Of a stretch of DNA of 64,000 nucleotides, positions 3,067 through 54,219 are shown piece after piece. The stretch is from Gossypium raimondii (lineage: Eukaryota; Streptophyta; Magnoliopsida; Malvales; Malvaceae), in the NCBI RefSeq assembly GCF_025698545.1, contig NC_068569.1, forward strand, positions 5,022,001 to 5,086,000, given 5' to 3'. The stretch's first letter is position 1. Every line of letters starts with the position of its first letter. The translations under genes were made by a program, and so were the position numbers. The notes under the pieces were generated by a model. The model had not been told where the DNA came from. It made no database searches and was given only the letters and a program-made list of their open reading frames with translations.

Positions 3067-5476
3067 TTAATATTTCCTTCCGTTTTGCAATTTCTTTTTG
3101 GAACTTCTTCTTTTTTCTGCTGAAAACATTTCCTTCACAGTATGCGAACAATTTTACTTTGATATTTTGGTTGACTATGAATTTATCTTTGAATAAATAT
3201 TAGGGATAATACAACTTTAGTCCCAAAATTTATCAACTTTTTTTTTATCTTGGTCCTTAAATTGTTTTTGTCCTCAATTTGACAATCTTTTCTTGAAATT
3301 TTGGAATATGTGATGAAGTGATGCTCGATATTATGTCACGTTATCACTGTAAAATTAATAATTTTTTATAAAAAAATAGATGATGATGTGGTATAATCTT
3401 AGAGTGCCGCATCATTTTATTGACCAAAATTGAGAAAAATTGTCAAATTCAAAATTAATATGAATAAAAAATGTAGAAACCAAATTCAACATTAATTCTA
3501 AATTAGTACTTTAAATAGAAGAGAATACCTCTCTTAGAATTAAGATTTTTCCCTTGTGGAAAGCATATTGGATTTCCACCTTATCTTTATTTTATCAATA
3601 ATTATGATTTTAGGAGAAACATGAACACGTGAAAAGCCGATATATATAAGTTGAATAAACTTAAACATGGATAATAATTATTGAAAGTTGACTGATTATA
3701 GTGGAAGCAATTCGTAAAGTATAGTTCATTGAAAGTTGATGGAACTTGACTTTACTAAGAATTTAAAGAGGTGACAAATTCAGAGAGAGAGAGAACCTTG
3801 TCAAATGCTTGAAAAAGCAAATCATGCGTGCGCCTTACAATTTAATATAAGATACATAGTTCACATTTATTTGGTTGTTGTTGAGAACAAATCCCCAACA
3901 TATCAAGCATTATCCTAGTGGAGATTTTATCTCATGACGCCATTAAGGAGTTCTAAGTGCTTAAAAAGGTGGTAGCATTCTTCCCTCCAAATGTCCTACA
4001 TGCTATAGGGCATGGGCTGCGTAATTCGCCTTCCCAGGCATATAATGAAACTCGCTCTCATTGCCTTTTTAGGCATTTAAGCTTTTGGTAAAATGGATAG
4101 GCAAATCTCTCATTAGAGATAATATAAGACTTGTTGAGAGATTCGTTGATTTCAAGAGAATAAAAAATTTCTCAAAATATGAAAATGGATTGTATTGATT
4201 TTTTTTTTTGATAAAGTTTAATAAATAAAAATGATTTAATATATCTCTTTTGTTTTTTGAACAAATATATAGTAATGTTTTAATAACTTAATTTTTAACA
4301 GTAAATATTGACTATTTTTTAACAGTAAATATTAAATTGTAACGATCAATAATTAAAATAATTAATATATATAGTAATCCTTTATTTTTGGAACAAATAT
4401 GAATGATGTGTAGGTTCCAAACAGACCTTAAAGAGGTCTAGGCCATGTATTTGGAGGATTGTCCTTTCCTTTGATTCAGTCCTTGCGAGAAACAAATATG
4501 TTTTTAGATAAATTGTTTCCTGCGTTTTCGTTGCTTGGCGTAAGGGCATTTCATTAATGAATATGATATTTATGGTTCATGAGCCATGTTTATATGAACC
4601 ACCGTCTTAAAATTTGACAAAATACCAGTCTTTAGATCAATTGTATTTACGAGCTTTTGAACATCAGGATTCTTATTTTATGACTTCGTACACTCTTAAC
4701 CAGGGAGGACTATCCACTATGATCCATGATCCAGGCTAACAGTTAGTGGAGCGGTAGGCAATCCAAGGCGGGTTTTTTTTTTTTAACTTTAAGAACTAAA
4801 TGATATTTTAATTTAAGTTTTATTTCATATTAAATCTAATATGTATTTATTTTTAAAAATGCAACGTGTCACAACACTATTAACTAAGAGAACAATTTTT
4901 AACCGGACTAAACAATTGAATAAAAAATTGTAAGGAAATCAAAATTTAATAAGTACACACTTTCCAAAAAAAAAAAACATATTAACTTCACTCAACTTTT
5001 CAGACTCAAATAAAAATTTGGCCAAAGTGAAAAAAAAATTCAAGACGAAAGTGACAACGTCATTATACAAATTTTAAATTAATACAATTGAATCAATATT
5101 TCAACTAAAACTAAAATTATATAATTGCATACAATCAAAACATAGGACACAAAGGGCAATTTTGAAATTTATCACAGAAAGGAGAAAGCCAAAGATAAAG
5201 TTTGGTTTCAAGCAATGAGATGTAAGGTTAAAAAATCATATTTGGCACCTCCTGAGCCATCCATACATGCATACATTCATTCATACAGAGAAAATCATTA
5301 TCCATAAAATATAAAGAGGAAAAAAAAAAAAACATAACCTAGAAGAAAAAATTGTTGCACTCCAAGCTACCTTTGCATCCGGCAAAAAGACATAATCAGC
5401 TACACCAAAATAATAATATAATCCAACGGCTAAAGCAAGAGTGATTACCTAACACAAAACAACATTATTGAGGAAT
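3067..5476. other. Convergent intergenic region, no gene seen
   Basis: This lies between the 3' ends of the GATA gene and the KHZ gene. It should hold both 3' UTRs. The remainder is AT-rich with repeat-like text, for example around 3200-3500, where an imperfect inverted arrangement of 'ttgacaatctttt' and 'aaaaattgtcaaatt' suggests an old MITE-like insertion. No coding-like segment longer than about 60 codons is supported. Confidence 0.5.
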
Positions 5477-8400
5477 TTACATTCCTGGCTTGCGCAATTC
5501 TTCTGTTCCATGCGCAAAGTGGCACCTTTCACCAAAAGTGCAGGATCCTTTAGAGAAGTTCTCGCACAGCTTAGTCTTAAAGTTGTTCCCCGAACCAGAT
5601 CCACTCTTAGAGGTGTTCTTCATGCTACTTCCAGAGGCCGAACCAACATTTATAATCAGTTCGTGAACCATTGCACTGGCTTGCTTGATCTGATCAAATG
5701 TTCCCTCCAGCTCAATGTTCCTTGAACTAGGATCCGATTCATTCTCCCTTATAGAAAGCTTGGCTCCTGTAACCCGACAAATATGCTTCGAGTTCACACC
5801 ATTTTTCCCGATAATAGCTCCTGCAAGAGATGCATCAATGCTGATCTTGGCAGTGGCAGATGCTCCGAAGCTGGCTGCAGCACCAAAACCTGGTGAGGGA
5901 GGCTCCAATCTGCCAGCCATTCTCCCAGGCATTGGTCCCATGGAACGAGGGTCTTCGTAAGCAGGACCAGTCCGCTTTCCAAGCTCCCATTCGCCATGAG
6001 CAAAATGGCATTTATCACCAAACTTGCAACCTTCAGGGGTGCTGAATTTGCTGCACAGGCGGGTTTTTACAGCTGGAGGAGATGAGCCATCAGGAAAGGA
6101 TGGTGGGACTACTGAATTTCTGGCAGCTGCAGGAAGAGCTGGGTTGTTACCGAGCATCTGAGACACTGCTTTGATGCCACCCGGAACATAATGCAAGAAG
6201 TGACAGCTCTCACCAAATTGGCACCCAGAAGTGCTGTGAAATCAACAAACTCAAGAATATCAAAGCTAATATCAACGCAATACCGTTTTGTTAATACTGT
6301 AATATAAGTACTAGTACAGTCTATGAGACGCAATTATGAATTTATTTAAGCTCTTTGTGCAGACACTATAGCTCATACAATACAATGAAATTGGTGTTAC
6401 TGCATGTAACGTCAGGAATCACACACAAAAGAATCTTCCGTATTACTACATCATTGAGTAGCAAGCACTAAGAACATGACACAACCCTTAACTATAGCCC
6501 AGAACCAAGCAAATCAGCAATCCTTTCTCCACAAAGCCACTTTCTTGAATGTGTATATAGAAAAAGCATATCATATAAAATTGACACTTCATTCAAGCAA
6601 TCAATTCCTCGCCCTTAATATAGTCCTAAAACTGAAGAGATTAGAAGGAAAGTTTTCCATATCAATCTAAAGGAAAGTTCATACACTCCCGTGCATCTAA
6701 TAAGAAAAGCCAGTAATAAGCTTATCCCTATGATGAAAATAGTCTAACAGATTGAATCCATCCTAAAATCAATGCTTTCTTCTCCTACTCAATATCTCAC
6801 CACAAGCAGCACTAGTCTTATACGATTACACTACTTATACGTTCATTAAACCTAATGCACAACTCACTTGATCCAGACACATCATATCTTCTTTTACAAT
6901 AATATGGCGACAGTCCATGTTACAATTAATTGTGCCAACTGCAAATTGCAATGAATTCTTAGATTGTTTGGGATTTGAACTTGATAACTTATCCGAGAAT
7001 AATTCGATCATCAAGAAGCAGGGGATAAACAATTAGAAACGTCATAAATCCACCCAGTATCCAGTGATATCAATCCAAAATATTTTGATATTAATCCATG
7101 CTTTGAGAGCTTAACCAGACTAAAAACAGAGCTCATATCAATCAAGCCACTCATCACATGATCTTTCCAATCTTACCATCAAGTAGCACCATGCAAAATA
7201 CACGCCAAGGACCCCTCCAAGCACAGTAAAGATCAAATTAATAACTTTCCTCTTTAAAAATAAAAAATATATCAGCTATCTCAGTTAATGCACTTTTTTT
7301 CTAATTTGCCGTAAAGTTCAGATCGATATTAGTGTACTGAAGCACTGCCAATTCCATACACCCAGAAAAAAACAGCTAGTCTGCATCCTACTCTAGCTGT
7401 CATTTCTCAAGCATTTTCATGTTTATAAAATTAAAAATGGGTTTATCACTGGATAAATAGTTACCAAACTGTTTGACACAGACAAGAAAAATGTTCATAA
7501 CTACCATTACTTCTAGGAGAAAGAGAGAGATTGATGCCCTCAATGTAATAACAGTAGTCATAACAATACCATCGCACTATCATCCTCAAATTAATGAAGA
7601 AGAGTTTTATCAAATTCAATTACATTTCATTAACTGAACTGCTTACAAACTTCAATTGTCTATAAGCAGAATTTTCAAACAAAACAAGCTCCAGTGCCTA
7701 GAAAAATGCAAATATGCATTATCTTTCCCCCCAAGAAAAAGATAAAAATTGATTCCCAGGTAAAATAAATGCACATAAAACCAAGTACATACATTCACAT
7801 AGTATCAAATCTTACTTACAAAAAAGAAACCCAGCTTGTTTCAATAGTTTCTCATAAAAGCATTAATTACTGTTCAGATGTATGACTTTTAAAATTCTTG
7901 TATGAGTCCTACAATATGTAAATGATTATGATGTATATTGAGAAGTAAAGGAAAGAAGTCTGTGTGGCTTTTACAGAGGATATATGAGACTCAAGAAACT
8001 TAAATCTTTAACCTTCCCGAGCAAACTTGACTAAAATAAGTTGACATATACAAGAATGCTACAAATGAATAAAGGCCCTAGATAAACATGCTACTCTATG
8101 AGTACATCCAAAAAAGTTTTTCCAAGAATGTTGGCCTTATTTTTTGAAAAGAAAATTTAATCAAGATGGGAAAACAATACTCATAACATAAAACAAAATT
8201 CCATATGTGCATGAATTATTAATCAAATAAGGAAAAAAATCTCAAATTACACAACAATATATGCATATATATAATAACAAGCGTTTCCTACTTTTTACTT
8301 TCCTCTTCAATAAGACAATCCTCAAAATTTATAAACCAATTAAGTAAAAGAAAGGAATTAAGTAAAGCTTACTCAAGCAAAGAATTGGAGAACAACCTCC

Positions 8401-26255: not shown

Positions 26256-26264
26256 AATAGAAAT
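26256..26264 (+). repeat. Left 9-bp target-site duplication of the Mutator element
   Basis: AATAGAAAT directly precedes the element, and the identical 9-mer follows it at 35663-35671. A 9-bp duplication is diagnostic of Mutator-like elements. Confidence 0.93.
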
Positions 26265-26465
26265 GCGCAAAATACCAATAAAAGCCTTTTTTTAAATTAC
26301 TAAAATGGGCCCGGTAAAAATTAATTACAGGAATGGTCCAATTCCCCGAAAACGCGTCCACGTCAGCGCGTTGTCAGGTGATGAGGCAGGAAAACGTTTC
26401 TTCAACGGAGCGCTTTGCCTACATGGACATAAAGTGCGCCCTCAAAGACGCGTTTTGCCCGTGTC
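26265..26465 (+). repeat. Left terminal inverted repeat of the Mutator element
   Basis: Begins GCGCAAAATACCAATAAAAG and is alignable by eye over about 200 bp with the reverse complement of 35465-35662. Shared landmarks are GCCCGGTAAAAA, GAAAACGCGTCCAC, GAGGCAGGAAAACG or its variant, and AGCGCTTTG. Confidence 0.92.
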
Positions 26466-26736
26466 TCCTGCTGGTTAAGGTTTTTGGTTTTTTTATGGTT
26501 TAAGGTTAGGGTTTTGTGGGTTTTAGATTTAGGGTTTTAAAGAAAAAATCAAACAAATAAGGGATTAGGGTTTAGGGTTTATTAATTAAATTAATTATAA
26601 ATTTTTCAAATTTGGATTAGGTTTCGTGTTTATGGTTTTTAAAGAAAAATCAATTAAATTAGGTTTAGGGTTACTTGAGTAAATTAATTAAAAAATTTAA
26701 AAAAATTAGATTAGGGTTTAGTGTTAATTTAAAAAA

Positions 26737-27290
26737 GCTCCCACGTAGAGGATCTTCTGCTACAATAGCTACTGAAAAAATAATTTCGAGAAAACGTTTC
26801 TGAGCAAATAGTGTCAAAAATGCTTTAAGCAAGATGCTTTGTCAGCAAAAGTACTGAAAGAAGCTCCCACGTGGACGCACTTTTGCTACAGTAGCTCCTA
26901 AAAAAATAATTTCGAGTAGACGTTTCTGAGCAAATAGTGTCAAAAACGCTTTAAGTAAGATGTTTTGTCAGCAAAAGTACTGAAAGAAGATCCCACGTGG
27001 ACGCGTTCTTGCTACAGTAGCTCCTAAAAAAATAATTTCGAGTAGACGTTTCTGAGCAAATAGTGTCAAAAACGCTTTAAGCATAATGCTTTGTCAGCAA
27101 AAGTACTAAAAGAAGCTCCTACGTGGACGCACTTTTGTTACAGTAGCTCCTGAAAAAAATAATTTCGAGTAGACGTTTCTGAGAAAATAGTGTCAAAAAC
27201 GCTTTAAACAGGATACTTTGTCAGCAAAAGCACTGAAAGAAGCTCCCACGTGGACGCACTTTTGCTACAGTAGCTCCGTTTGGCCTAAGG
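26737..27290 (+). repeat. 126-bp tandem repeats with ACGT-core boxes
   Basis: Direct repeats begin at 26737, 26863, 26989, 27115 and 27242 (periods 126, 126, 126, 127); the last is partial. Each unit starts near GCTCCCACGTGGACGC and continues through TACAGTAGCTCC, TTTCGAGTAGACG and GCTTTGTCAGCAAAAG. Units 2, 3 and 5 have a perfect CACGTG (26868, 26994, 27247). Units 1 and 4 keep only the ACGT core. The array ends just before the transposase TATA box, so it is likely to be the promoter or enhancer of the transposase. Confidence 0.9.
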
Positions 27291-27291
27291 C

Positions 27292-27298
27292 TATAAAT
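27292..27298 (+). promoter_or_regulatory. TATA box of the MULE transposase gene
   Basis: TATAAAT in the context GGCTATAAATGAAG, 85 bp upstream of the ATG at 27377 and directly downstream of the 126-bp repeat array. Spacing fits a plant core promoter. Confidence 0.7.
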
Positions 27299-27376
27299 GA
27301 AGCAAATTTTTTTTCTCAGATTGCATAAGTTACAGTAAAAAAAATTTAGAGAGGCTAAGAATGATAGAAATTGAAG

Positions 27377-30300
27377 ATGAGTGAACGTATTAGTGTTGTT
27401 ATTTATTGTGATGGTGAGGTTAGTCACACCGAGAACGGTGTTATTTTTTTATCGGAGAATACAGTGCAACTGGTTTTTAACCAGAACATAGATTTGACAG
27501 AACTTCGTAAAAGAATTAGGCGTAAAATATTCAGAACGACACCAATGAAAGTTCTGTCTATTACGTATCGGTTTTGTTCTTCTGTTGATTCGGTGACATA
27601 TGACTCGTTCGACGTAAAATGTGCTCGTAGCTTGGAGGCAATGGTGCAGACTCATCTTGCCAGTGGAGCACCCTATATGGAGTTATATATACGATTTACA
27701 TCGCCAAATGATGCACTTGCGACTGCTGTTCGAGAAGTATACACGAATCCTGCCCGATACTCGGTTAGTGGGTTACAAAATACGGAACAACCCATGTTTG
27801 GTAGCGGTATGAAATACACATCCCCTGCATGACACTCTATCAGTGGATGGGACATGCACCTTGGTGGGTCGATGTTTGATGCTGAAAATACGTACTGGGG
27901 AACGGTATCAACTTCTAGTGGTTGGCAATCTACATCCAATTAGGGACGTTATGAAACGCCTAGAAGAAGAGATGATGTACTCCCTACGATGTCCACCGAT
28001 GAGGGGACCTTGTACGTTGCAGATAATGGTGGGTTAGAAGATAACTCCGACGTGGATCCACCTCGAGAGCCCGGGCCCGATGATGCAGAAGTTGTATTAT
28101 TTTTTGAATCAAAGCTTATTTCAACCGAATCTAAAAATGTTGAAGGGGGTTCAGATGAAGAAGAAGGTTCACGATTTAGAGCATACTCACCTCTAGCCCG
28201 TATACATAATGTTGATCTGTCTGTAAATAGTGCGTTGGAGTTTCCAAATCTACCACACATGTTACGTGATCGCACAAGTTTGATACTGGATTCGGGTGAA
28301 TTTGAAGTTGGTAATGAGTTTTCCAACAAGGATAGTTTTATTGGTGCATTAAAACAACATAGCATCAATAGCGGCGTTAACTACCACGTGGTTAAATCCA
28401 GAGCTGATAAGTTTGAGGCGAAGTGTGCAGTGCAAGACGACACATGTTCATGGAAAATCTACGCCTCGTTGAGGAAAAGGACAGGGTTGTGGGAGATAAA
28501 AAAGTACAAAGGTCCACATACATATGTTGCAGGTACAGTATTTAGGGTTTCTGAATAATACTGTTATTATGTAATGTTGTATTATTTAATGTGCTCCGTT
28601 GATAGGTATTTCACAAGATCATCCCAAGATAGATTCAGCTATGTTAGCTAGCTTGATACTACCTACGGTGAAGGCAGATCCCAAGACTTTAATACCGGTC
28701 TTAATTGCCAATATTTGTAGCCAAATAAGGTACACGCCCTCTTATCGCAATGCTAGGATAGCTAAGCAGAATGTAATGACCCAAAATTCACGGGCATCAG
28801 AAAAGTATAATATCGGGCCTCCGTCTTAGTAAATTGAGTTAAAAAATAATTATTAGAAATATTTACGAGACTAGTTGTGTGTTTAATTAGGTTTTAGATA
28901 GATGAATTTAGCTTGATTAGGAGTAATTAGCAAAAAGGATTAAATTACAATAGAAGTGAAAGTTTAATTATAGATTAAAAGAAAATAAGAGGGACTAAAT
29001 AGGCAATTATATCAATTTCCAAATTTGAGGTTGCATAAGCATAAAAATCTAAGATTTTTATGTGTTAAAATATGTTATTAAGTTATTATATTATTATATT
29101 ATAAAATAAATTAAATTGTAACAAATATATGGTAATAAAAATATACATGTGTAAAAATAATATTGGTACAATTGTAAATTAAATATTTAGTTGTTTAAAA
29201 TTTAAGTTAAAAGATATTTATATTATGATTATGATTATATTGTTATTATTATAATAAAGTAAAAAGTAAGTAAAAAGAAAAAAAAAAAGAAACAAAATAG
29301 CAAACGAAACAGGGAAAAGAAAGAAAGAAAGAAGAAAAGGGAAAATAGGGTTTTTAAAGCTTGGAGTTCAATTTGGTAAGTCAATTAAGCCCTTTTCTTT
29401 TAATTTTGATGTTTTAGAAGCTTTAAAACAAAGTTTTGATAGAATTAAGTTGATATTTTGTAAGTTCATAGGTTTTAAGATGGTTCATGTTGAACAAATT
29501 GTTGAATTAGGGATTTAATTGAATGAATTTTAAGTTAGAATTGATAAAGGGATTAAATTGAAATGAAACTATAAGTTTTATGTTTTAGGGACTAAATTGA
29601 GGGAAATTCAAAATTAGGAAAATATGTTGAAATTTTAATAGTTACATTTGAGTTTGGATGAAATTTGAATAAAAATACAAGGTGAATTGAATTAGAAAAG
29701 TAAGTAAACTTAGTTAAGATTAAATTAAGAGTAAGGTAAAAATTGATTAGAAATTCAGTTATTTATTTTAATTTAATGCTGTAATTAATAGCAAAAATTA
29801 TTATTATTTTCTTAGCTAACAAAGAACCCGAGGCATCGGCAACAAAATGAAATGAGAAAGCTATCGAGGACTAAAATGGGAGATTTACAGTTTGTATTAC
29901 TATAACTTAAACTATTTACTAAATGCTATATTGAAATTGTAATCATGGGACATTTAAAGTAAGGTAAGTAATAACATTTGAAATTAAATAAGAATATGTG
30001 TGAATATTAAATTATATGTGAATTGAAATATTAGATGTTTTGAATTGTTTGAATATTTGAAATTATTGTGGAAATGAATTCGAAATTGGAAAAGTAAAAT
30101 AATACCCTATTAACTTATCGGACTAGATTGGATACAAATGGCATGCCATAGAATTTGTGATGTGATGAGGAGATTTGTAGTTCGGCCTAGAAGATGATTA
30201 TGTTATTATATGCTTCGGTTTATTCGAAGAGGCATTTAATGTCTTATTGGTGTGTTTGGGAGGATATGATATACTAGTGTGTTATGGAGGATTTATATTA

Positions 30301-32722
30301 TTTCGGGTGTGTTTAGGTTGGATATTTTGGTGTGTGTGGGTGGATTTCGCGTATTTGTCAGAGTCCGAGCCTAGTTAATAGGGTAAACAGTTAAAATGAA
30401 AATTTGAAAATGAGATTGGTTGATTTGACACTATTGAAAAGTACGAGAAAGAATGTATGAGTAAAATCATGAATTGAATTAGTATATGAATATATATATA
30501 TGGATTTAAGATGTATGAAGTGATATATAATTATGTATAATTAGTTTAAATGATTTATAAAGCTTATGGTTGATGTTTGTAATTTATTAATGTTAAATAG
30601 TTTAATTTATAGTAATACCATTGAGTATGAAATACTCAGCGTATGGTTGTTCCCGTGCGCAGGTCATTAGATTTCAAGGTCCAGTTCAGCATCCAGAAAG
30701 ATCTCGACTCCAACAAGAAAATTTCGGTGATGTTTTCTTCCTTAAATGAAAGTGGCACGTACATAAGAATTATAATAGTTATTTTGGTATGTTATATAGT
30801 TTTGTTGTAAAGAAAGGTATTTGATGTTTTGATGATCATATTAGTAAAATGGTAGAAGTTATATATAGTATTGGTATCAAATTGAAATGGCTTGATTAGT
30901 TTTATGAATTAATTAGAAATGATAATGGGATTTTCATTGATTAAGTTGTTATGTCAATATGTCAAATATAATTTAAGTATATAAATGTATTGGTTGAATT
31001 ACTGAGATTGGTTTGGTTGCGATTTGAAATTTGCAGGGGGTTTTATGTCAAAATAAGCAGAAATGCTGCCGAAATTTATAAAAAAATGAAGTCAATTAGT
31101 AAAATTTATATGAATTTATGATTTATTTTAATAAATTGGTTATTTATTTAATGATTATTTGTAAATTGTTTGATATGTCCAGTAATGCCTCGTAACCCTA
31201 TTCTGGCGATGGTTTGGGGTTAGGGGGTGTTACACAGAAGGCGTTGGAGAAGATGCATAGTGGATGGGACGCTTCATATAATGAAATATGGCAGTGGTGT
31301 CAAGTGCTAGAGAGATACGTCTCAGGTTGCATAACAGACCTTGAAACATAACATGCATACTAAAACAGCCGATTGCTACGTGGATGCCAAGTGTTCAAAC
31401 GCTTGTTTTGGACCTTTAAACAATGCTGAGACGCATTTTCATACTGCAAGCAATTGATACAAATTGACGGTACCTTTATGTTTGGTAGATATACCCATCG
31501 ACTATTGCTAGCAGTGGCACAGGATGGCAGTGGGAGAATTCTTCCAATTGCGTTTGCAATAACTCCGGGAGAGTCAGCTGATGACTGAAATTTCTTTCTA
31601 TCTAGGTTAATGAGGCATGTATGCCCCAACCTGATATTTGTGTTATTTTATATCGGGGCACCGAAATACTAGCTGCAATTGATTGACAGGGAAGCTTATG
31701 ACAGCACACACACCATCGGTATTGCCTAAGGCATGTTGCTTCCAACTACTACAGGCAATATCTATCTAAAAGTGAACGACGACAAGTGACCAACATGAGT
31801 ATTTAGTCTCTATTAATATAATTTCGTTTGTCATTTTGAATTTATTCTAAATGAAATAGTGGTATGTAATATTCGCTATGAACTTATATTGGCAGGGTAT
31901 GAAATAAATAAAAATCGTTTTCACGAAATGTTGACAGTTTTGTGTTCAATTAACGGTGAAGGCACGGGCTACCTTTGAAACATACCTTTCGAACTGTGGG
32001 CACAAGCATACGACGGCGGCCTACAATATGGTTATATGACCTCAAACCTGACTGAATGCATAAATTATATTCTAAAAGGAATGCGCCATCTACCGATAAC
32101 ATCGGTTGTGAGAAAGACATATTTTCGTTTGGCGACGCTATTTCTAAAGCGAGCAGCGAGTTACGCAGGCCAGATGCAGGGAGGCCATGTATGGTGCAGT
32201 AAGGTAGTGCAAGAAATTAACAAGGCCAAGGCACAGACGAACACCATGCACACAGTGTGTCACGATCGAGAAAACTTATAGTTTCGCGTGACAGAGTTTG
32301 ACAGACCGCACCAAGGTGTTATTGGCGGGCAATATCGTGTACATTTGCGAAATAGGACTTGCGACTGTGGGATGTTTGAAGCATTTTATTATCCATGCGC
32401 TCATGTAATTGTAGCTTGTTAGAATCTCCGTTTGGATCCGATGAGCTATGTCGACGAAGTGTACAAATTAGAAAACATGTACAACGTCTGAAGATACATA
32501 TTCCTACCGGTCCCAGATGAATGTAAGTGGCCGTCTATATCGCTTGCTCCCTTTAAGCTGTTACCGGATAAATAATTACGTCGCAAACCAAAGGGTCGAC
32601 CTTGCTCGGCTAGAATACATAACAATATGGATATCCGAGAAATAGCCAGTCAACAGAAGTTGTGCAGATGGTGTTGGAACCTAGGCCATACAAGCCGATC
32701 ATGCCTAAATCGCAATAGTTGA
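27377..32722 (+). pseudogene. MuDR-type transposase (mudrA-like), decayed and interrupted
   Basis: The coding frame starts MSERISVVIYCDGE. It runs in one frame to 28531 apart from two nonsense codons (TGA near 27830, TAG near 27942). It carries an acidic linker and the MuDR N-terminal domain (EFEVGNEFSNKDSFIGALKQ). An intron follows at 28532-28603, then the exon RYTPSYRNARIAKQ, which is cut by a solo LTR and resumes with KALEKMHSGWDASYNEIWQW at 31237. Later segments show the DDE core (IDGTFMFGRYTHRLLLAVAQ, then PIAFAITPGESADD-stop). At the expected second Asp the sequence is VILYRG, so the catalytic residue is Tyr. A SWIM zinc finger (CDCGMFEAFYYPCAH) and a C-terminal CCHC knuckle (CRWCWNLGHTSRSC) follow, with several further stops. 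It once cut and joined DNA at the element ends; this copy cannot. Confidence 0.9.
28772..31234 (+). mobile_element. Solo LTR (2463 bp) inside the transposase
   Basis: Begins TGTAATGACCC and ends GGGGGTGTTACA, a perfect TGTAA/TTACA inverted end of LTR type. It is flanked by the 5-bp duplication CAGAA at 28767-28771 and 31235-31239. Removing one duplication joins AAGCAG to AAGGCG and restores the transposase reading ...KQKAL. No gag, pol or primer-binding site is present, so it is most likely a solo LTR left by unequal recombination. The superfamily cannot be decided from the LTR alone. Confidence 0.9.
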
Positions 32723-33058
32723 ACGTTGTTATAAAAAACTTTGTATTATTTATATTTTTTTAAATCAAATAATATGGAAATATTCAGAATATTGATTTAT
32801 TTAAAATAAAATCAATTTTATTAAAAATATTAAAGTAAATTACAATTATTTTATTCAAAACAACGTTTTATTTTATTAAATGAAATAATATAGAAATATT
32901 CAAAATATTGTGTTATTTAAAAGAATTTCTATTATATTAAAAATGTAAAAGTAAATTTCTATTTTATTACATGAAATAATACAGAATAATTTATATTTTA
33001 TTACATCAAATAATATCAAAATATTCAAAATATTTGTACAGATATATTAAAGTAAAAA

Positions 33059-35247
33059 TCAATCTCCGTGCCCGCCAGATTCAGTGCCACATGGCGATCG
33101 TCGACGATTACGCGCTGGATTCCTCATTTGTCCAGCTTCTGGCGGGGGTTGTGGTTGCTCCGGCAGGGATTCTGGTTCCTCCGGTAGGGGATCTGGTTGT
33201 CGGTGTTGGGACGATGAGCCATCTTGATAGAATAGTGACTGTGGAAGTGTTTGCATCACCAACGACGAAGCTGTTCGAAACTCATACGGTGATGGGGATT
33301 GGTAAAAAGAAGAGCTTCCCGACGGCCCCTCATGTGATCCCTCGTGCGACGGTGGGCTATATATTGGCGGTCCACTCGGCGTAATTAAAAATGGAGATGA
33401 ACCGGGCCATTGACTCCAACCTACCATAGGACTAGAAAAAAGAAACATATAAGGGTTAGGATACATAAAATTGCTAGGATAAACACTTGGCATCATCTGA
33501 AAAGGTTGTGCTGTGGGTGTCGTCGGTTGAAGTGTTGGACTCGGTGACTGTGTCGGTGCTGTTGCTGGGCTTGGTGATGGGTCGGGTGATTGTGATGGGC
33601 CTGCGTCATCGTCTATTATTATTGGATTTAAAGCCCATGTCGTTCCCTTTGGACAAGCAATTGCCGCAGCCTCTCATCTGCTGACGGTAAATACGGCTTA
33701 CCATGGATCCTAAATCATAACATGTATTCTGGCACGCACGCTAACTTTGGAACAATGATCGGTTCCCGAGTAGGTCTATAATCATACCGATCTTCCCACA
33801 TTTAGATGTAGTGTGACCAAAATCTCGGCCAGTCCGTATGCAATTACCGTAGGTTGATTTTGTGATGATCATTCAACACATCAGGTGCCACGGGAATCGA
33901 TTGTCAGAATCCAATTTGCCGTAATACTTTTTCTGACTAGTGCATCTCCACGGTCGCAAAGTTGACCAATGAGACTTTCACATGCCAAGCGTTTGGATTT
34001 TGGAAGTACTCATCCGGAATTACTGTCCGAATTGTCGGATCCTCGTATGGTGTCCATTGAAACTATATGAACACGATAGAAATATTAGTTTTATACATAA
34101 TACATAATACTAAATACTAAATACTAAATACTAAATACCAATCGACTATCTCACGATGGAAATATCTATTTTATTTAATACTTACTTGTGCTTCCGACCG
34201 TTGGTCTAATAGAAGTCGTATATCTTCAAGAGAGATAGGTAATCGAGCATAACTTGCCGAATGGTTCGACCTAATTAAATAAATTTTTAGCATTCGATTA
34301 TATTTTAAATAATGTAATAATTGTAAAATCTAATATAAAATTTACCTCGTTATGAGTGGGAATGTATACGGGTGGTCCATTCAAGGACGTAAAAATAGAA
34401 AGCGAAACCGTGCCCATTACTGCAGTAGTGATAGACAACCTCCAATTTTTGCTTTATTCGGTCGCGTCGCCCCGCACATCTCTCGGCACAATATTGCCAA
34501 CACGACAGACCCCCAATTAAATTCACCAACTGCTCTAAAATCAACGAATTTCAGCAGCCATCTTAGATGTATAAGGTTTTGTGACAAGTCCGACATCAGA
34601 TAACCTTCAATTATCTGAAGAATGTATGCCCGAGCATATCATATATTTTCTAGTTCGGTAGAATCATCATCCAGCTCCGGGAATGTGTCTTGTAACCAGC
34701 CCATTTCGATCCGACCTCCGTTAATATTTTTCGGAATAGCGCCTAAAAGCTCGTAGCATACCGCTCCCCAATCACTTGATTGAACAGACCCGGTGACCGC
34801 GTACCCGTCCACCGGCAATCCCAATTGCAAATTTACGTCTTCCAAAGTGACAGTGCATTCTCCACATGAAAGATGGAATGTGTGCGTCTCGGATCTCCAC
34901 CTCTCAATCAACGCACGGATGAGTTTTGGGTCCAACTTGCATCCCCGGCCTACCGTCGCCACATGCCAAAAGCCTCTCCCCGCAGATAATTCTTTACCAA
35001 CGGTGATGGAGGACCATGAATATTACGGATATAACATTGCAATATCCGATCTACAGACTTTTATAAGAAATAATAAAATAAAAATTATTTAAAAATTATA
35101 AGAAATTTCTAATAAAATAAAAATTATTTAAAATTGCATAAATCAAAAAATCTTAAATAATATTTAAAAATTAAATTTAACACTTACCATTTTCATTTGT
35201 TCGACAGATATGTGCTTGTTATCGAGATGAATTAATTTTCCGGCCAT
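33059..35247 (-). pseudogene. Plant mobile domain (MAIN/PP7-long-form-like) gene of the MULE
   Basis: Minus strand. Exon 1 is 35247-35188, MAGKLIHLDNKH..., with donor GTAAGT. Exon 2 from about 35057 reads VDRILQCYIRNIHGPPSPLV and then loses frame near 34975. The domain resumes as GRGCKLDPKLIRALIERW, ETHTFHLSCGECTVTLEDV and NLQLGLPVDGYAVTGSV: the hallmark plant mobile domain. Further downstream are diverged segments (LPISLEDIRLLLDQ; WPRFWSHYI) with several stops and shifts. A Pro/Ser/Gln-rich tail follows (33496-33059), ending in a basic NPARNRRRSPCG segment. Host relatives MAIN and MAIL1 act with PP7L in silencing and genome integrity. Other members of the family live in transposons, as here. 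Confidence 0.85.
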
Positions 35248-35464
35248 TGCTAACACAATCAAATTTTTATGATTTAAAAAATTCAAAAAAATAAAATTAA
35301 AGCTTTTTTTTAAATAATTAAAAAAATTAAAGTTTTTTTAAGAGGAATTTGAGAGAAATTGAGAGAAAGGATATAGGTGTAAAAAAAATGAAAGGGAGGG
35401 TTTTATAGTTTTTTTTTTTACCGTTGGGGGGTCACTAACGGTAAAAAAAGTAGCCATTGCTATT

Positions 35465-35662
35465 GTTCACGCGTGGGCAAAGGCGCGCTTTCTGTCCACG
35501 TGGACAAAGCGCTTCCTTGAGGAAGCGTTTTCCTGCTTCGTCACTTGATAACGTGCTAATGTGGACGCGTTTTCGGGAAAATAGGGCCATTCCGATAATT
35601 AATTTTTTACCGGGCTCATTTCAGTAATTTTAAGAAATAGGACTTTTATTGATATTTTGCCC
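35465..35662 (-). repeat. Right terminal inverted repeat of the Mutator element
   Basis: The reverse complement begins GGGCAAAATATCAATAAAAG and follows the left TIR through GCCCGGTAAAAA, GAAAACGCGTCCAC and AGCAGGAAAACG. The inner part contains CCACGTGG. The flanking 9-mer at 35663-35671 repeats the left target duplication. Confidence 0.92.
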
Positions 35663-35775
35663 AATAGAAATAGTTAAAATTTTTAATAAAAATGGAAAAA
35701 AAATACTTTTATGTTTACCGTATATTCATCTCGGAGAATGCAATATAAATATAAATCCCGAATGAACATACTTAA

Positions 35776-35994
35776 ATGAGAAATCTACTCTCAGTTTCTG
35801 CTTCCTTAGGCTTTGCTTTTGCCTCCGCTGCTTCTATCCCTCTTCCACCGTATTACTTATTTCACCCATTAATTTCCTCTCGCCTCACTTCTCCCTTGCA
35901 CGCCACGTTTCTATCGGCGGCAGCCTTCGAATGGACCCTTCTTTACCCGACCCCGCCTCCTCCCTTTCTGTCGATTCCGTCGCCGACAGTTTGA
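35776..35994 (+). other. Overlapping upstream frame resembling a transit peptide
   Basis: 72 codons starting MRNLLSVSASLGFAFASAAS. The translation is Ser/Ala/Leu-rich, has Arg residues and lacks acidic residues over its first 50 positions, as organelle transit peptides do. It ends inside the SELO coding region and is out of phase with the SELO ATG at 35931. It is therefore either an upstream ORF that would damp SELO translation, or a former transit peptide separated by an indel. No in-frame ATG exists for SELO upstream of 35931 before a stop. Confidence 0.45.
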
Positions 35995-49852: not shown

Positions 49853-51909
49853 TGGAAAGTCCGTAGGTGAAGAAGATCAGTTCAGTCAGTAAAGATATTT
49901 AAATGATATACATAGTGCATGCATGTATATCGTTTCATAATTGAGTTATATTAAACTTCAAAAACTATGGAAATTTGATGGTATAAAATAAATGCTAAAC
50001 CCAAAACAATGGCTTTGATTAATTTCTTTCTCTGGGTTATTATGAATCCTGAGGACTGATAGCTTCAGGATATTGAACTAGGTTTGTTATAATTCGATGT
50101 TTGTCTATGTTAATTTTGAGTATTAGAGGGTAACAGGGTTCTTTGTTAATTTTTTGCTTCACCCAATTATGACCTTAATTTTAGGTTTTGATATTTTTTT
50201 CATCAATTAAAATCATCAGAAGTAATTAAGGGTAAATAATTTATCTGTTCATAATAGCTAAATTTAATATCGCAATCTACATGTACATTAATTAAATTTA
50301 CAATTTATAAATGAGTTATTTTAAAATAAAAATTTTAGATTTTTGTCTTTTATAAAACATTTATTTTGCGTGTTTATTTATTAAATTTATATTTGTTAAT
50401 TAAACGATATTTAGCCTAATTTATAATAAAAATTTATTAATTTTGAAAAATTAATTTAGATAATAAGCAGCTAATAAAAATTTAAAAATAAAAAATTAAA
50501 AACAACCGATAGTAAAATATTAAGTAATTAGATAAAACAACTTATCATTTAAATATGATTCAAATTTCACCTAAAAAATAATATTTTAATATTTCTTTAC
50601 TTTTCACATAATATTTAGTAACAAAATGGTAAAATTATTAAAATCATATAATAGCAAAACTAATAAATATAGAATAATAATAACTATTACATTTATAATA
50701 AAAACATTGTTAATAAAATAATTATAATTATAATTATATTATATTAATAATTTGTTATGAATGTTAATTATATTTTAATTTAATAGAAACATTATTAATA
50801 AAATAATTTATTATATTATTGATTTTATAGATTTAAAAATATGAGAAAAATAGATAATAAAATATTAATTCTTAATTAATCAGTTTTCTTTATCTTAATT
50901 TCTCAAATAGATATGAGTCATATTATTTGTCAGTTTGAATTTGTATTGAATCGAATTGATTTAATTTTTTAGTAAAAATAATAAGTTGATTAGAAGCATT
51001 TACTATTTATAAAAAATTATTATTTTAATTTGATTATAAAAATAACTTTTGGGTCGCTTTCATTTTGGTCATCTAAAAATATCTTTTTAAGAATTGATTG
51101 AGGTAAACAAAAATCAAGGATTAAAGTGAAAACACGATAGAAACTAAAATAATATACAAAATTTGTCAAAATGTGTTTGTTTATCCTATTATGGAAAATT
51201 TTAAATTTGAGTTTTGAAATATAAATTTTAAATATCAAGATTCAAAATTAAAGTAGCAAATAAGTTGATATTATCAATGGATAAAAACTTTCAACAATTT
51301 ATTTCAACAATTTATTTAATTTATTTTGATATTTTGAAATTATTTTCAAAATCATCAATGAAAATTATTGTATTTACTGAAACCTAAATTTCTTTTGATT
51401 ATATGATCTTGAATCTTCCATGCCAAGCTAAAACAAAGAAAATACTAACAATTAATTAATTTTATCTTCCATTTAAACCAAAACTCATAATTTTTCATCA
51501 CTTCTTTACCCAAACGAAAAATAAGCAAATAATTTAATTAATTGCAAGTGTTTTTCCTTTACTTTTAGCTCAGCATGGAAGATTCAAGATTATATAATCA
51601 AAAGAATTTAAGTTTCAGAGACAATTATTTTATATAAGTTATTTGAGTTAATTTTGTTAAAGATACTCTAGAAACATAAAATAAATTTTTAAAATTTAGA
51701 AGGAGATTAAATTAATTAATTTTAATATTATAGTAATAAAATGGTTGACATTATCAGTGGACAATTTCTTTTAACAATTTATTAATTTATTTTAATATTT
51801 GAAATTTAAAAATTAAAATTTTAATATTAAAAAAATAATTTCAACAATAGATAAACAAATATAATTTGACAAAAAATTGTATTATTTTAGTTTATATCGC
51901 TTTTTGTCT
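49853..51909. other. Very AT-rich spacer, no gene seen
   Basis: Almost purely A/T sequence with poly-A/T blocks. One feature repeats: text around 51390-51480 (ATTATATGATCTTGAATCTT and following) reappears inverted around 51560-51600 (AAGATTCAAGATTATATAAT), suggesting a palindromic MITE-like relic. No coding segment is supported. Confidence 0.45.
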
Positions 51910-54219
51910 CAGATGGTTTTGCAATCAGATGGTGATCTTGTTCTTGCTACCGTAAACTTGCCCAGTAAACATGTTAATGACCCTTACTATAAAATTGTCA
52001 CTGCTGGAGATTCCAATTCATCCAGTCCTGGTTTCCAGTTAGTCTTCAATGAATCAGGCTACTTGTTTGTTTTGAGAGAAAATGAAGAAAGATCCGTTCT
52101 AACACCTACAATAACGGGCTCAGCTAAAGACTTGTACTACAGAGCAACTCTCGATTTCGACGGAGTTTTCACACTCTACTCTCACCCCAAGGCTTCCACC
52201 GGGAATGATACGTGGACTAGTCTTTGGTCTGAGCCTGAGAATATTTGCACATCAACTCCTGTAGTCCTGTTGGTGCAAGTAGCGGCGTGTGTGGTTTCAA
52301 CAGTATATGCAGTCTCAACGCGGACAAGAGGCCGAGTTGTGGATGTCCCAGGGGTTATGCTTTAGTTGATCCAAGTAACCAGTATGGCAATTGCAAGCCT
52401 AACTTCACTCTGAGTTGTGAAGAAGAGCCAGGTCCCGTGGAAGACCTGTATGAGTTTGAAGTGCTAACAAATGTGGGTTGGCCACTAGGTGATTATGCAC
52501 TCTTGGAGCCATTTACTGAAGACCAATGCAGACAATCTTGCTTGCATGACTGTATGTGTGCCGTCGCCATTTACAGAGAAGGTGATAAGTGTTGGAAGAA
52601 GAGGCTACCACTGACGAATGGAAGACCCGTTCCCAGTCACTTTGGGGCAAAAGCTTTTCTCAAAGTTAGGAAAGGAGATCGACCTCCTTTCTGTCCTTAT
52701 TTTCCCAATCAAGAAATTAAGAATCAGGAAACTTTGATCCTTGCATTATCAGTACTTCTAGGCATTTCTGTGTTCTTTATTTTCATTCTGGTTACCGCAA
52801 CTTGTCTAGGATTTTAGTTCATCTACCAAAAGAGACTCAAACTATTGCCAAAGAATGAAGTTGCCGTGGAAACAAATTTGCGTACTTTTACTTACAAAGA
52901 GCTTGAGAATGCTACAAATGAGTTCAAAGAAGAATTAGGAAGGGGATCTTTAGGCATTGTTTATAAAGGGACGTTACCTACGAGTTATGTCAGTCAGGTA
53001 GCTGTGAAAAGATTGAATACCTGAGAAAGAATTCAAGACTGACGTGCATGTAATTGGTCAAACGCATCACAGGAACCTCGTCCGTTTGCTCGGATTCTGT
53101 GATGATGGAGATAATAGGTTACTGGTTTATGAGTACTTGAGCAATGGCAGTCTAGCAAGCTTCCTTTTCTGTGGCTCAAGGCCTAGTTGGAGCCAAAGAA
53201 CTCAGATTGCTTTGGGGATTGCAAGAGGGCTCCTCTACTTGCATGAAGAATGCAGCACGCAGATTTGTTAAAACAAGGGCAGCAGCAAAAGAAGAGAACA
53301 AAGAGAACAGAACAATGAAACTAGATGCAAGAAAAAATTTTACTTGCTCACAAATGTGCGGCAAGGGAGCTATGGCTGATAGCTCATTCAGCTCATTCAT
53401 TCAACTAGAAAAACAACATATTTATAATCAAATACATCACCAAATACTACCTACTGCCACTAAGTAGCCTAGTAACTTGATAAACATTGCTTGTATACAT
53501 AAACAAGCCACCTAAACTAGTCATTCAACACCTAATGCATCAAGTTACCGTCAACTTGTTCATTTTCAACTAGTTTAATCAACAAAGAACTAAAGAGAAA
53601 ACCTTGCTGTTACAGCAAGTATACGTGCTGCAGCATATCATCAAGCTGCATGCACTTCAACCAAAACATGTAACAGCAGCATGGTTGGCCAATTTCCAAC
53701 AAGATTATTCACTGTGATATAAAGCCTCAGAACATTCTGCTAGATGAGCATTACAATGCAAAGATTTCAGACTTTGGATTGGCAAAGCTTTTGTTAGTGA
53801 ACCAGAGCCATACCAATACTGCTGTTCGAGGAACCAAAGGATACGTGGCAGCGGAGTGGTTTAGGAACCTGCCGATAACCGTGAAGGTGGATGTTTATAG
53901 CTTTGGAGTGCTGCTGCTGGAACTCACTTGTTGCCGAAGAAGTGTAGACATGGAGAGCGACATGGAAGAGAGAGCAATTTTAACTGACTGGGCTTATGAC
54001 TGCTACTGCGAAGGCGCATTAGATGCACTAGTTGAAAACGACATGGATGCCTTGAATGACATAGGAAAAGTAGAGAAGTTTGTGCAAGTTGCCATCTGGT
54101 GTATTCAAGAAGATCCGTCGCTGAGACCCACCATGAGAGCAGTCTCACAGATGCTTGAAGGAGTTTTGGAAATCCCTTTTCCACCATGCCCATGCCCATA
54201 TCCATACCATATGCTTTAA
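51910..54219 (+). pseudogene. Truncated G-type lectin receptor kinase (LECRK) copy
   Basis: Homologous to the copy at 61796, beginning at its residue 179 (MVLQSDGDLVLATVNLPSKH), so the signal peptide and most of the bulb-lectin domain are missing. Lesions: an 8-bp insertion near 52262 (CTCCTGTAGTCCTGTTGG against CTCCTGTTGG) that shifts frame in the EGF-like part; TAG at 52815 at the end of the transmembrane segment; a deletion at about 53020 after VAVKRL; and a 436-bp solo LTR in the catalytic loop (53266-53701). After it, [20 protein letters not shown] and [13 protein letters not shown] continue to a natural end [12 protein letters not shown] at 54219. It cannot encode a working receptor. 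Confidence 0.93.
53266..53701 (+). mobile_element. Short solo LTR (436 bp) in the pseudokinase
   Basis: Starts TGTTAAAACAAGG and ends TTTCCAACA (TG...CA). It is flanked by the 5-bp duplication AGATT at 53261-53265 and 53702-53706. The intact sister gene has a single AGATT at this point (CGCAGATTATTCACTG), so both borders are defined by comparison. It has no coding capacity. Size and ends suit a Copia-type solo LTR; the superfamily is inferred. Confidence 0.92.

Follow-up and report, generated by a model that had tools for sequence, protein, structure and literature searches.

Structure and state of the element

The window, i.e. the whole 64-kb stretch of DNA that was analysed, contains a Mutator-like element (MULE) of 9,398 bp (26265-35662), which is bounded by terminal inverted repeats (TIRs) of about 180 bp and carries a mudrA gene on the plus strand and a plant mobile domain (PMD) gene on the minus strand, in a head-on arrangement. 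The left TIR (26265-26441, plus strand) aligns with the right TIR (35482-35662, minus strand) over about 180 bp, or 201 columns at 80.6% in BLAST, in keeping with the length of about 200 bp given by a sequence-only reading of this locus. The other structural claims of that reading hold as well: the 9-bp target-site duplication (TSD) is perfect, AATAGAAAT being present at both ends (26256-26264 and 35663-35671) with 9/9 identical positions, and domain matches on the plus and minus strands place a mudrA-type transposase on one strand and a mobile-domain gene on the other, head-on. Across 17 copies of the element (window included), at ends picked by script, the TSD was identical at 9/9 positions in seven, at 6-8/9 in seven and at 3-4/9 in three.

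The mudrA gene consists, on the plus strand, of an N-terminal exon (27377-28531) that starts with MSERISVV and contains two stops, with a DBD_Tnp_Mut profile match (E 1.4e-9, 27944-28558), a second exon (28605-28769) that runs up to an insertion, a catalytic region of the MULE type (31238-31797) with stops and one frameshift, and a last exon (31895-32719), also with stops, that has a SWIM-type region and what we read as a CCHC-like region. The MULE (PF10551) and SWIM domains were scored in the counterparts of a distant relative, L036; in its transposase both lie above the cut-off and DBD_Tnp_Mut lies below it. The insertion that splits mudrA is LTR-like, measures 2,463 bp (28772-31234), begins with TGTAATGACC, ends with GGTGTTACA (TG...CA) and has CAGAA on both flanks; we read it as a putative solo LTR.

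The PMD gene is encoded on the minus strand by a first exon of 20 amino acids (35188-35247), a second exon with the PMD core and a frameshift (34345-35054), a small third exon (34186-34266) and a last exon with stops, a frameshift and a proline-rich tail (33062-34062). The PMD match (PF10536; 34639-35022) has an E-value of 4e-25 and 89.2 bits, against a gathering cut-off of 34.9. The gene had been described as having its own first exon and a clean GTAAGT donor just inside the right TIR. Indeed, the first exon lies about 235 bp inside this TIR, and of the 16 element rows in which exon 1 can be followed to its end, 15 retain the donor, a 17th row being set aside as an off-target match. An AlphaFold2 model of the PMD core had a pLDDT of 40.3 and was unusable, and a PDB sequence search returned one match only (E 0.4), which was disregarded.

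In the aligned codons, mudrA has 13 stops and the PMD gene has eight, besides frameshifts; since both genes are thus broken and mudrA is split by the insertion, the window copy is dead.

Tandem array and shared motif

Between the left TIR and mudrA lies a tandem array of 126-bp units (26731-27277, plus strand; 4.3 units, TRF score 889); no tandem repeat in the window scores higher. The sequence-only reading mentions neither this array, nor the insertion in mudrA, nor the decay of the genes. Four array units contain an exact ACGTGGACGC (26869, 26995, 27121 and 27248); the same motif occurs exactly in the left TIR (26354-26363, minus strand) and, with one mismatch, as ATGTGGACGC in the right TIR (35559-35568). 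All seven matches to ACGTGGACGC at up to one mismatch in the 64-kb window fall within the element, against 0.41 expected. Arrays of period 125-127 precede mudrA in 19 of 20 TIR-anchored copies. The motif occurs in TIR and array alike in the window copy and in 10 of 15 scanned relatives; the other five do not show it in both places. In the distant family L036, the repeat upstream of the mudrA frames is a different one, with a different motif. A motif common to TIRs and array is also what a transposase-binding site would be expected to look like.

Association of the two genes among relatives

The genome was searched with the left TIR, the best 40 of 1195 candidates being scored. Among 20 TIR-anchored copies, in which PMD pieces were placed by DNA homology (rows of the PMD tail say nothing on frames), PMD pieces were found in 19 and pieces of both genes in 18, convergent in all 18; one of these 18, L027, is included on the strength of a PMD tail that lies past a nested element. 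The expectation that relatives carry the mobile-domain gene is therefore borne out, and the part of it that concerned intact frames is not: intact frames were not found in the window family, and were found in the distant L036.

The association extends beyond the window family. Ten further elements (L034-L043), which were picked for a clean PMD exon and not for mudrA, have PMD identities to the window family of down to about 45%, and convergent mudrA pieces are found in nine of them, L034 having none within 7.2 kb. Among the best 150 of 2,237 mudrA candidates, 56 have a listed convergent PMD match within 10 kb, one has a PMD in a different layout and for 93 no PMD is listed, whereas random positions would be expected to give 1.1, whatever the layout; for 131 listed mudrA matches, the figures are 39 convergent and none in another layout, with 0.5 expected. 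Since these genome lists comprise the best 40-150 scored of 1,195-6,034 candidates, failure to appear in a list counts for little; in a random 12 of the 92 out of these 131 mudrA matches with no listed PMD, PMD pieces were found within 3 kb in nine. A putative young transposase lineage devoid of PMD was considered on the basis of clean 284-aa mudrA exons, only one of 24 of which had a listed PMD. With a better PMD list this became 7/24 versus 49/126 of the others, the 24 being drawn from the best 150 of 2,237, a top-scoring list enriched in clean exons; stops alone would leave about 5% of mudrA exons clean.

Selection on the two genes

The 20-row tree of copies is a star (terminal length 1.36, internal 0.025), and across 17 copies the in-frame N/S resembles the out-of-frame N/S, which indicates near-neutral drift of both genes within the burst. 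For these two reasons, selection was not judged from dN/dS within the burst.

Between subfamilies, dN/dS of the PMD core is 0.21-0.29 in 12/12 pairs (a range that the choice of L034-L043 for a clean PMD exon may lower a little) and that of the transposase core is 0.19-0.30 in the 10 pairs with data; for L036 versus L043, bootstrapping gave 0.24 [0.17-0.35] and 0.24 [0.16-0.34], respectively. In L016n and L027n, two rows not picked for their frames, the PMD core excess is 0.35 and 0.38. The rest of the protein is much looser in the window family: constraint is weak on the C-terminal half (excess 0.65 and 0.79) and absent from the tail (excess 0.71 to 1.39). Among L036-L041 themselves, where dS is low, the PMD core ratio ranges from 0.32 to 0.87. 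Synonymous divergence for the same pairs is higher in PMD (about 0.8-0.9) than in mudrA (0.4-0.7). The dN/dS comparison suggested by the earlier reading thus came out in its favour, the PMD core being constrained like the transposase core between subfamilies.

Similarity of the PMD cores to DUF1985

A DUF1985 match at E <=1 was obtained for 11/11 PMD cores, namely those of 10 elements other than the window copy and of one host-like protein (this label and that of PMD-B-like come from Pfam coverage and are putative). The best E-value is 9e-05, two others are 0.04 and 0.09, and the scores of 13-21 bits (for the seven of 11 members with scores shown) lie below the Pfam cut-off of 35.1. In the seven cores with ranges shown, the matches fall at the same end of the profile. 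None of seven reversed or shuffled controls and none of three PMD-B-like proteins matched DUF1985. No DUF287 was found in the 11 PMD core exons at E <=1, nor in the L036 tail exon at E <=0.01. DUF1985 is carried by VANC, the targets of which are tandem repeats in noncoding regions (PMC5735166).

Possible role of the PMD gene

Because 18/20 copies carry pieces of both genes in convergent orientation and the PMD core has a dN/dS like that of the transposase core, it is strongly supported that the PMD gene is a resident gene of the element, the core of which was formerly under selection. The earlier reading had likewise taken it for a resident gene and not a chance neighbour, and the refutation tests that it proposed did not refute it; taken as a whole, its interpretation is supported in part. 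In the window family, mudrA and the PMD gene have been passed on together, head-on, flanked by long TIRs and 9-bp TSDs; judging from the substitution ratios, the cores of both proteins were held by purifying selection in those lineages that went on transposing. The window is best explained as holding a dead copy of an old and large lineage of two-gene MULEs. As its core was preserved by selection, the PMD gene probably helps the elements to survive.

Our tentative preference, held with slightly less than even confidence, is that the PMD protein could be an accessory factor that the element needs in order to succeed over the long term, the most likely way being that it keeps the noncoding regions of the element active in a VANC-like manner. 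On its own or together with host partners of the MAIN/MAIL1/PP7L type, it would target the motif-bearing arrays and TIRs of its family and oppose silencing there, in the way that VANC does for VANDALs; the window family offers as candidate sites the ACGTGGACGC copies of the TIRs and of the 126-bp units. Weak DUF1985 similarity and motif-bearing arrays lend indirect support to this likeness. A broader proposal, speculative and on the whole improbable, is that PMD and the DUF1985 of VANC might be branches of one domain superfamily, in which the PMDs of long-TIR MULEs would form a second, wider branch of sequence-specific anti-silencers, each family matching its PMD to a motif array of its own, which here would be ACGTGGACGC of the TIRs and 126-bp units. 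The host silencing factors MAIN/MAIL would then be relatives of transposon anti-silencers, and a single superfamily would serve both host silencing and transposon escape.

A less likely alternative is a transposition helper in the style of mudrB, in which the PMD would assist the transposase or integration, the motif of the TIRs and array would be bound by the transposase, and silencing would play no part. The presence of ACGTGGACGC not only in the array but also in both TIRs, the similar constraint on the cores of both genes and the head-on layout shared with MuDR, which has two genes of which mudrB is apparently required for integration (PMC6446971), are consistent with it; however, the relatives that have been studied, MAIN and MAIL1 of Arabidopsis, have roles in transposable element (TE) silencing and gene expression (PMC5418596, PMC7156037), and the portions of the literature cited here tie no PMD to transposition itself.

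It is also doubtful, and a little more so, that the PMD could be, as the earlier reading had suggested by way of example, a protein-level antagonist or decoy, which would compete with MAIN/MAIL1 for PP7L or for heterodimers and weaken silencing generally, the arrays being irrelevant. Five element PMDs are nearer to the host-like L032, at 35-40% identity, than they are to the PMD-B-like L029, at 23-26%, but their identity to L032 is low; the branch that joins L032 with the L036/L034 group has a support of 58. MAIN interacts with MAIL1, and both interact with PP7L (PMC7156037); TE-made PMDs have been suggested to be a counter-silencing strategy (PMC8616336); a decoy idea is absent from the cited portion of PMC7156037, where the single use of the word concerns mass spectrometry.

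A neutral passenger, that is, a host gene captured by transduplication and hitchhiking without function, is contradicted and very improbable: MULEs do capture host genes (PMC13317346), and the genes are decayed in the TIR-anchored copies and drift within the burst, but the low between-subfamily dN/dS of the PMD core, the conserved exon structure and donor, and the retention of the PMD across families at about 45% PMD identity all argue against it. A chance neighbour or a nesting of two elements, conceivable where nested insertions occur (the LTR-like insert; L027), is refuted by the single layout between shared TIRs in 18/20 copies and by counts far above random.

On why transposons carry relatives of the silencing factors MAIN and MAIL1, the literature cited here, as far as excerpted, offers speculation only. 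A resident, co-inherited and selected PMD gene in a large MULE lineage makes such speculation testable, in a system for which candidate target sites have been named.

Comparison with known systems

In maize MuDR, mudrA and mudrB lie head-on. The present element shares with it two genes, TIRs and a mudrA-type transposase, and differs in that its second gene is a PMD gene, which is likened to mudrB by layout.

The head-on layout of a MULE with a PMD gene (PMC6446971) and the anti-silencing idea for a MULE-encoded PMD (PMC5418596) have already been published, and the portions of these papers cited here contain neither a PMD/DUF1985 similarity nor a tandem array before mudrA. The plant MULEs of the MUDR group (group 50; PMC6446971, 2019), which includes diploid cotton, Gossypium raimondii, have a 9-bp TSD, TIRs in the size range of 30-320 bp, a SWIM-type transposase and, in most members, an antisense PMD gene. 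The 9-bp TSD, long TIRs, mudrA-type transposase and antisense PMD gene were all found here, and it is in these traits that the likeness consists; in contrast to the present analysis, that paper, in the portion cited, gives no selection test, repeats or motif. The MULE-encoded PMD-C of grasses and Amborella (Ikeda et al. 2017, PMC5418596) is likewise a case of a MULE with a MAIN-type PMD, but the PMD is fused to the transposase there, whereas here the two genes are separate, on opposite strands and convergent, and the PMD gene has its own exons.

VANDALs are described as TIR-less or as having short degenerate TIRs, whereas the present TIRs are long; a table in PMC6446971 gives the VANDAL group TIRs of 46-174 bp and "PMD and/or DUF in half the members". 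VANC has DUF1985 and DUF287; in these elements the main domain is PMD, for which anti-silencing is only inferred, the DUF1985 scores shown lie below the cut-off and no DUF287 was found in the exons scanned. They resemble VANDAL/VANC (PMC5735166, 2017; PMC10398659, 2023) in pairing a MULE transposase with an accessory gene, in having noncoding tandem repeats that vary from family to family and bear a short family-specific motif, and in the weak similarity of their PMD to DUF1985.

Structure of the element in the window

The sequence-only reading of positions 26265-35662 as a Mutator-like element (MULE) with terminal inverted repeats (TIRs), a target-site duplication and opposed genes for a transposase (mudrA) and a plant mobile domain protein (PMD) was borne out by alignment and Pfam searches. 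Indeed, (i) TIRs of about 180 bp each are aligned at its ends, (ii) by sequence comparison, the target-site duplication AATAGAAAT flanks it at both ends, (iii) mudrA lies on the + strand and matches DBD_Tnp_Mut, and (iv) the PMD gene lies on the - strand and matches PF10536 (89 bits; cut-off 34.9), the two genes meeting head-on at about 32.7-33.1 kb. Four exons make up the PMD gene (35188-35247; 34345-35054; 34186-34266; 33062-34062); 15 of the 16 rows preserve the GTAAGT donor of exon 1, and most rows also keep the three other junctions checked. This copy is dead, because both genes carry stops in aligned codons (13 in mudrA, 8 in PMD) and frameshifts, and mudrA is interrupted by a 2,463-bp TG...CA insertion (28772-31234), which has CAGAA (5 bp) on both sides and is probably the solo LTR of a long-LTR retrotransposon.

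We read the MULE as inserted just upstream of a host SelO-like (protein adenylyltransferase) gene: by our reading its ATG is at 35931, 260 bp past the end of the right target-site duplication, and frames at 37541 and 38863 match SelO. Further along, a receptor-kinase-like gene is locally duplicated (51906-54003; 62323-64000), its two copies sharing one block at 88.5% identity and another at 97%; PAN_2 and kinase domains were found in the first copy.

Pairing of the two genes in related elements

In a left-TIR search of the 750.8-Mb assembly (window: G000:C5:5022001-5086000), the best 40 of 1,195 candidates were scored; 20 fetched stretches and the window copy cover 26 of these 40 matches (the 17 best and partners of paired TIRs) and represent 20 elements. 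PMD pieces are present in 19 of 20, the exception being L019, whose second TIR is absent from the 10 kb read, and mudrA pieces in 19 of 20, the exception being the deletion derivative L017. Pieces of both genes occur in 18 of 20 elements and are convergent in 18 of 18, in support of a resident PMD gene; the PMD tail beyond a nested element in L027 is presumed to belong to L027. Two neighbouring elements found by chance (L016n, L027n) also carry both genes convergently. The sequence-only reading asked whether relatives repeatedly carry both genes with intact frames: the pairing held, but each of the 20 copies has stops in at least one of the two genes, and intact frames were found in the distant relative L036. 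Internal deletions occur in L020 and L024. L017 retains both TIRs and nearly the entire PMD region, mudrA being gone, and L024 both TIRs and just the 5' parts of the two genes.

Among the matches listed genome-wide for a distant relative's transposase, a PMD is listed within 6 kb of at least 39 of 131, in each case convergent (0.5 expected); none has it in another layout, and 92 are without a listed PMD. Twelve random draws from these 92 gave nine with PMD pieces within 3 kb on the expected side and strand (core in six, tail only in three) and three without. For the window's own transposase piece, at least 56 of the 150 listed matches have a listed convergent PMD (1.1 pairings expected by chance), one has another layout and 93 have none listed. 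Ten more distant elements (L034-L043) were picked for a clean PMD exon; convergent mudrA pieces are present in nine, and no mudrA match lies within the 7.2 kb read at L034. TIRs were observed in L035. L036 has long, clean frames in both genes (239 and 257 aa in PMD exons; 294, 254 and 296 aa in mudrA). They match PMD, MULE and SWIM in Pfam, and DBD_Tnp_Mut below its cut-off; the L036 PMD is 46% identical to that of the window. The L034 PMD locus is flanked by arrays of 51 bp x 6.3 and 41 bp x 4.8 (L034:1-322, 5918-6113). Elsewhere, five PMD matches among those listed, on one strand at about 1.7-kb spacing (G000:C5:33325701-33332851), are a tandem amplification of the gene.

The layout itself is already known, since PMC6446971 reports antisense PMD in most MUDR-group members, including a Gossypium raimondii element.

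Selection on the PMD gene and the transposase

The window family forms a star-like burst, within which both genes drift: dN/dS over 14 copies is 0.84 for PMD and 0.92 for mudrA (transition weight 3; 0.65 and 0.70 unweighted), and N/S is alike in frame and out of frame (17 copies). Burst copies are uninformative on selection acting on their masters; between-subfamily pairs are informative. In the 12 pairs of L036-L041 with L042 and L043 (weight 3), which have one deep split in common and are non-independent, PMD exon A gave 0.21-0.29 in 12 of 12, against 0.19-0.30 for the transposase core and 0.27-0.50 for the SWIM part (10 pairs with data); the concern that PMD might evolve neutrally where the transposase is constrained is thereby answered for the PMD core. 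Ratios were higher at the tail exon of PMD (0.46-0.60) and at the N-terminus of mudrA (0.48-0.65). Among L036-L041 themselves, exon A ratios of 0.32-0.87 at dS 0.03-0.12 are as expected if recent copies drift. Bootstrapping gave 0.24 [0.17-0.35] and 0.24 [0.16-0.34] for the PMD and transposase cores (L036 vs L043), and 0.40 [0.26-0.61] for the PMD core of L022 vs L016n.

The L016n, L027n and L027 rows were not picked for their frames, and half of the burst's own decay was subtracted. The PMD core then gave 0.35 (L016n) and 0.38 (L027n) and transposase segment m3a 0.24 (L027n) and 0.19 (L027), with 0.79 (L016n) and 0.65 (L035) for the PMD C-terminal half, 0.71, 1.13 and, for L035, 1.39 for the PMD tail, and 0.80 (L016n), 0.59 (L027n) and 1.52 (L027) for the mudrA N-terminal exon. 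Therefore, from the between-subfamily, bootstrap and unselected-row ratios, constraint on the PMD core roughly equalled that on the transposase core during the time when the lineages moved, and the remainder of both proteins was much looser. That the PMD gene is resident in the element and under selection is almost certain. No earlier between-subfamily selection test on PMD genes was found in a word-matching literature search, with subscription journals mostly outside it and sources available in part.

Synonymous divergence is higher in PMD (about 0.8-0.9) than in mudrA (0.4-0.7) in three bootstrapped pairs (L036/L037 vs L042/L043); candidate causes are a higher mutation rate, codon effects, or lineages swapping the PMD module.

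Tandem arrays and possible function

Between TIR and mudrA, the window element carries a 126-bp x 4.3 tandem array (26731-27277), and arrays of period 125-127 with 2.3 to 4.3 units occur in 19 of the 20 TIR-anchored copies scanned, none being detected in L017. The motif ACGTGGACGC, allowing one mismatch, occurs seven times in the 64-kb window (0.41 expected), always within the element: one copy lies in each TIR (mismatched in the right one), four in the array and one, mismatched, in mudrA. Of 15 relatives scanned, ten have it in TIR and array and three in the array alone (L010, L025, L026); it is absent from any array in L027n and L016n.

We favour, tentatively and at somewhat below even chances, an anti-silencing role in which the PMD protein would counter silencing at its own element's noncoding sites. 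A helper of transposition is rather unlikely, although a motif common to TIRs and array would suit a transposase site equally well. A protein-level antagonist of host MAIN/MAIL1, of the kind raised by the sequence-only reading, is, in our ranking, a little less likely again. Anti-silencing was suggested for MULE-captured PMD-C, found as transposase fusions (PMC5418596), and taken up again in PMC8616336.

Comparison with known PMD and VANC proteins

Five element PMDs share 35-40% identity with the PMD of the host-like locus L032, a candidate host gene that may or may not be a MAIN or MAIL, and 23-26% with that of the PMD-B-like gene L029. The branch uniting L032 with part of the element PMDs has a support of 58; the PMD may have been captured once or several times.

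DUF1985 was matched at E <=1 by 11 of 11 PMD cores scanned (10 element, 1 host-like, all from loci outside the window), the best at 9e-05; these cores are kin, so the likeness counts as one observation. In the seven cores with rows shown, the match (E 0.00045-0.09; 13-21 bits, below the cut-off of 35.1) falls in the C-terminal part of the profile in 7 of 7. DUF7745 was weakly matched by 2 of the 11; none of seven reversed or shuffled controls had a Pfam match and none of three PMD-B-like proteins matched DUF1985. A literature search by words, mostly outside subscription journals, found no paper with both DUF1985 and the plant mobile domain and, in the sources as available, no earlier repeat/motif or DUF1985 observations on PMD genes. 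PMDs in the VANDAL group are already published, 'PMD and/or DUF in half the members' being the entry for that group in the PMC6446971 table.

The VANC anti-silencing proteins of VANDAL elements contain DUF1985 and DUF287 and bind short motifs, their targets being noncoding tandem repeats that differ among related elements (PMC5735166). Upstream of the mudrA frames, L036 has a different array from the window family (27 bp x 4), in which six copies of ATTGGCGCC lie within 5640-5835, and a second array on its PMD side; the likeness to VANDAL elements lies in family-specific repeats, as in the window family versus L036.
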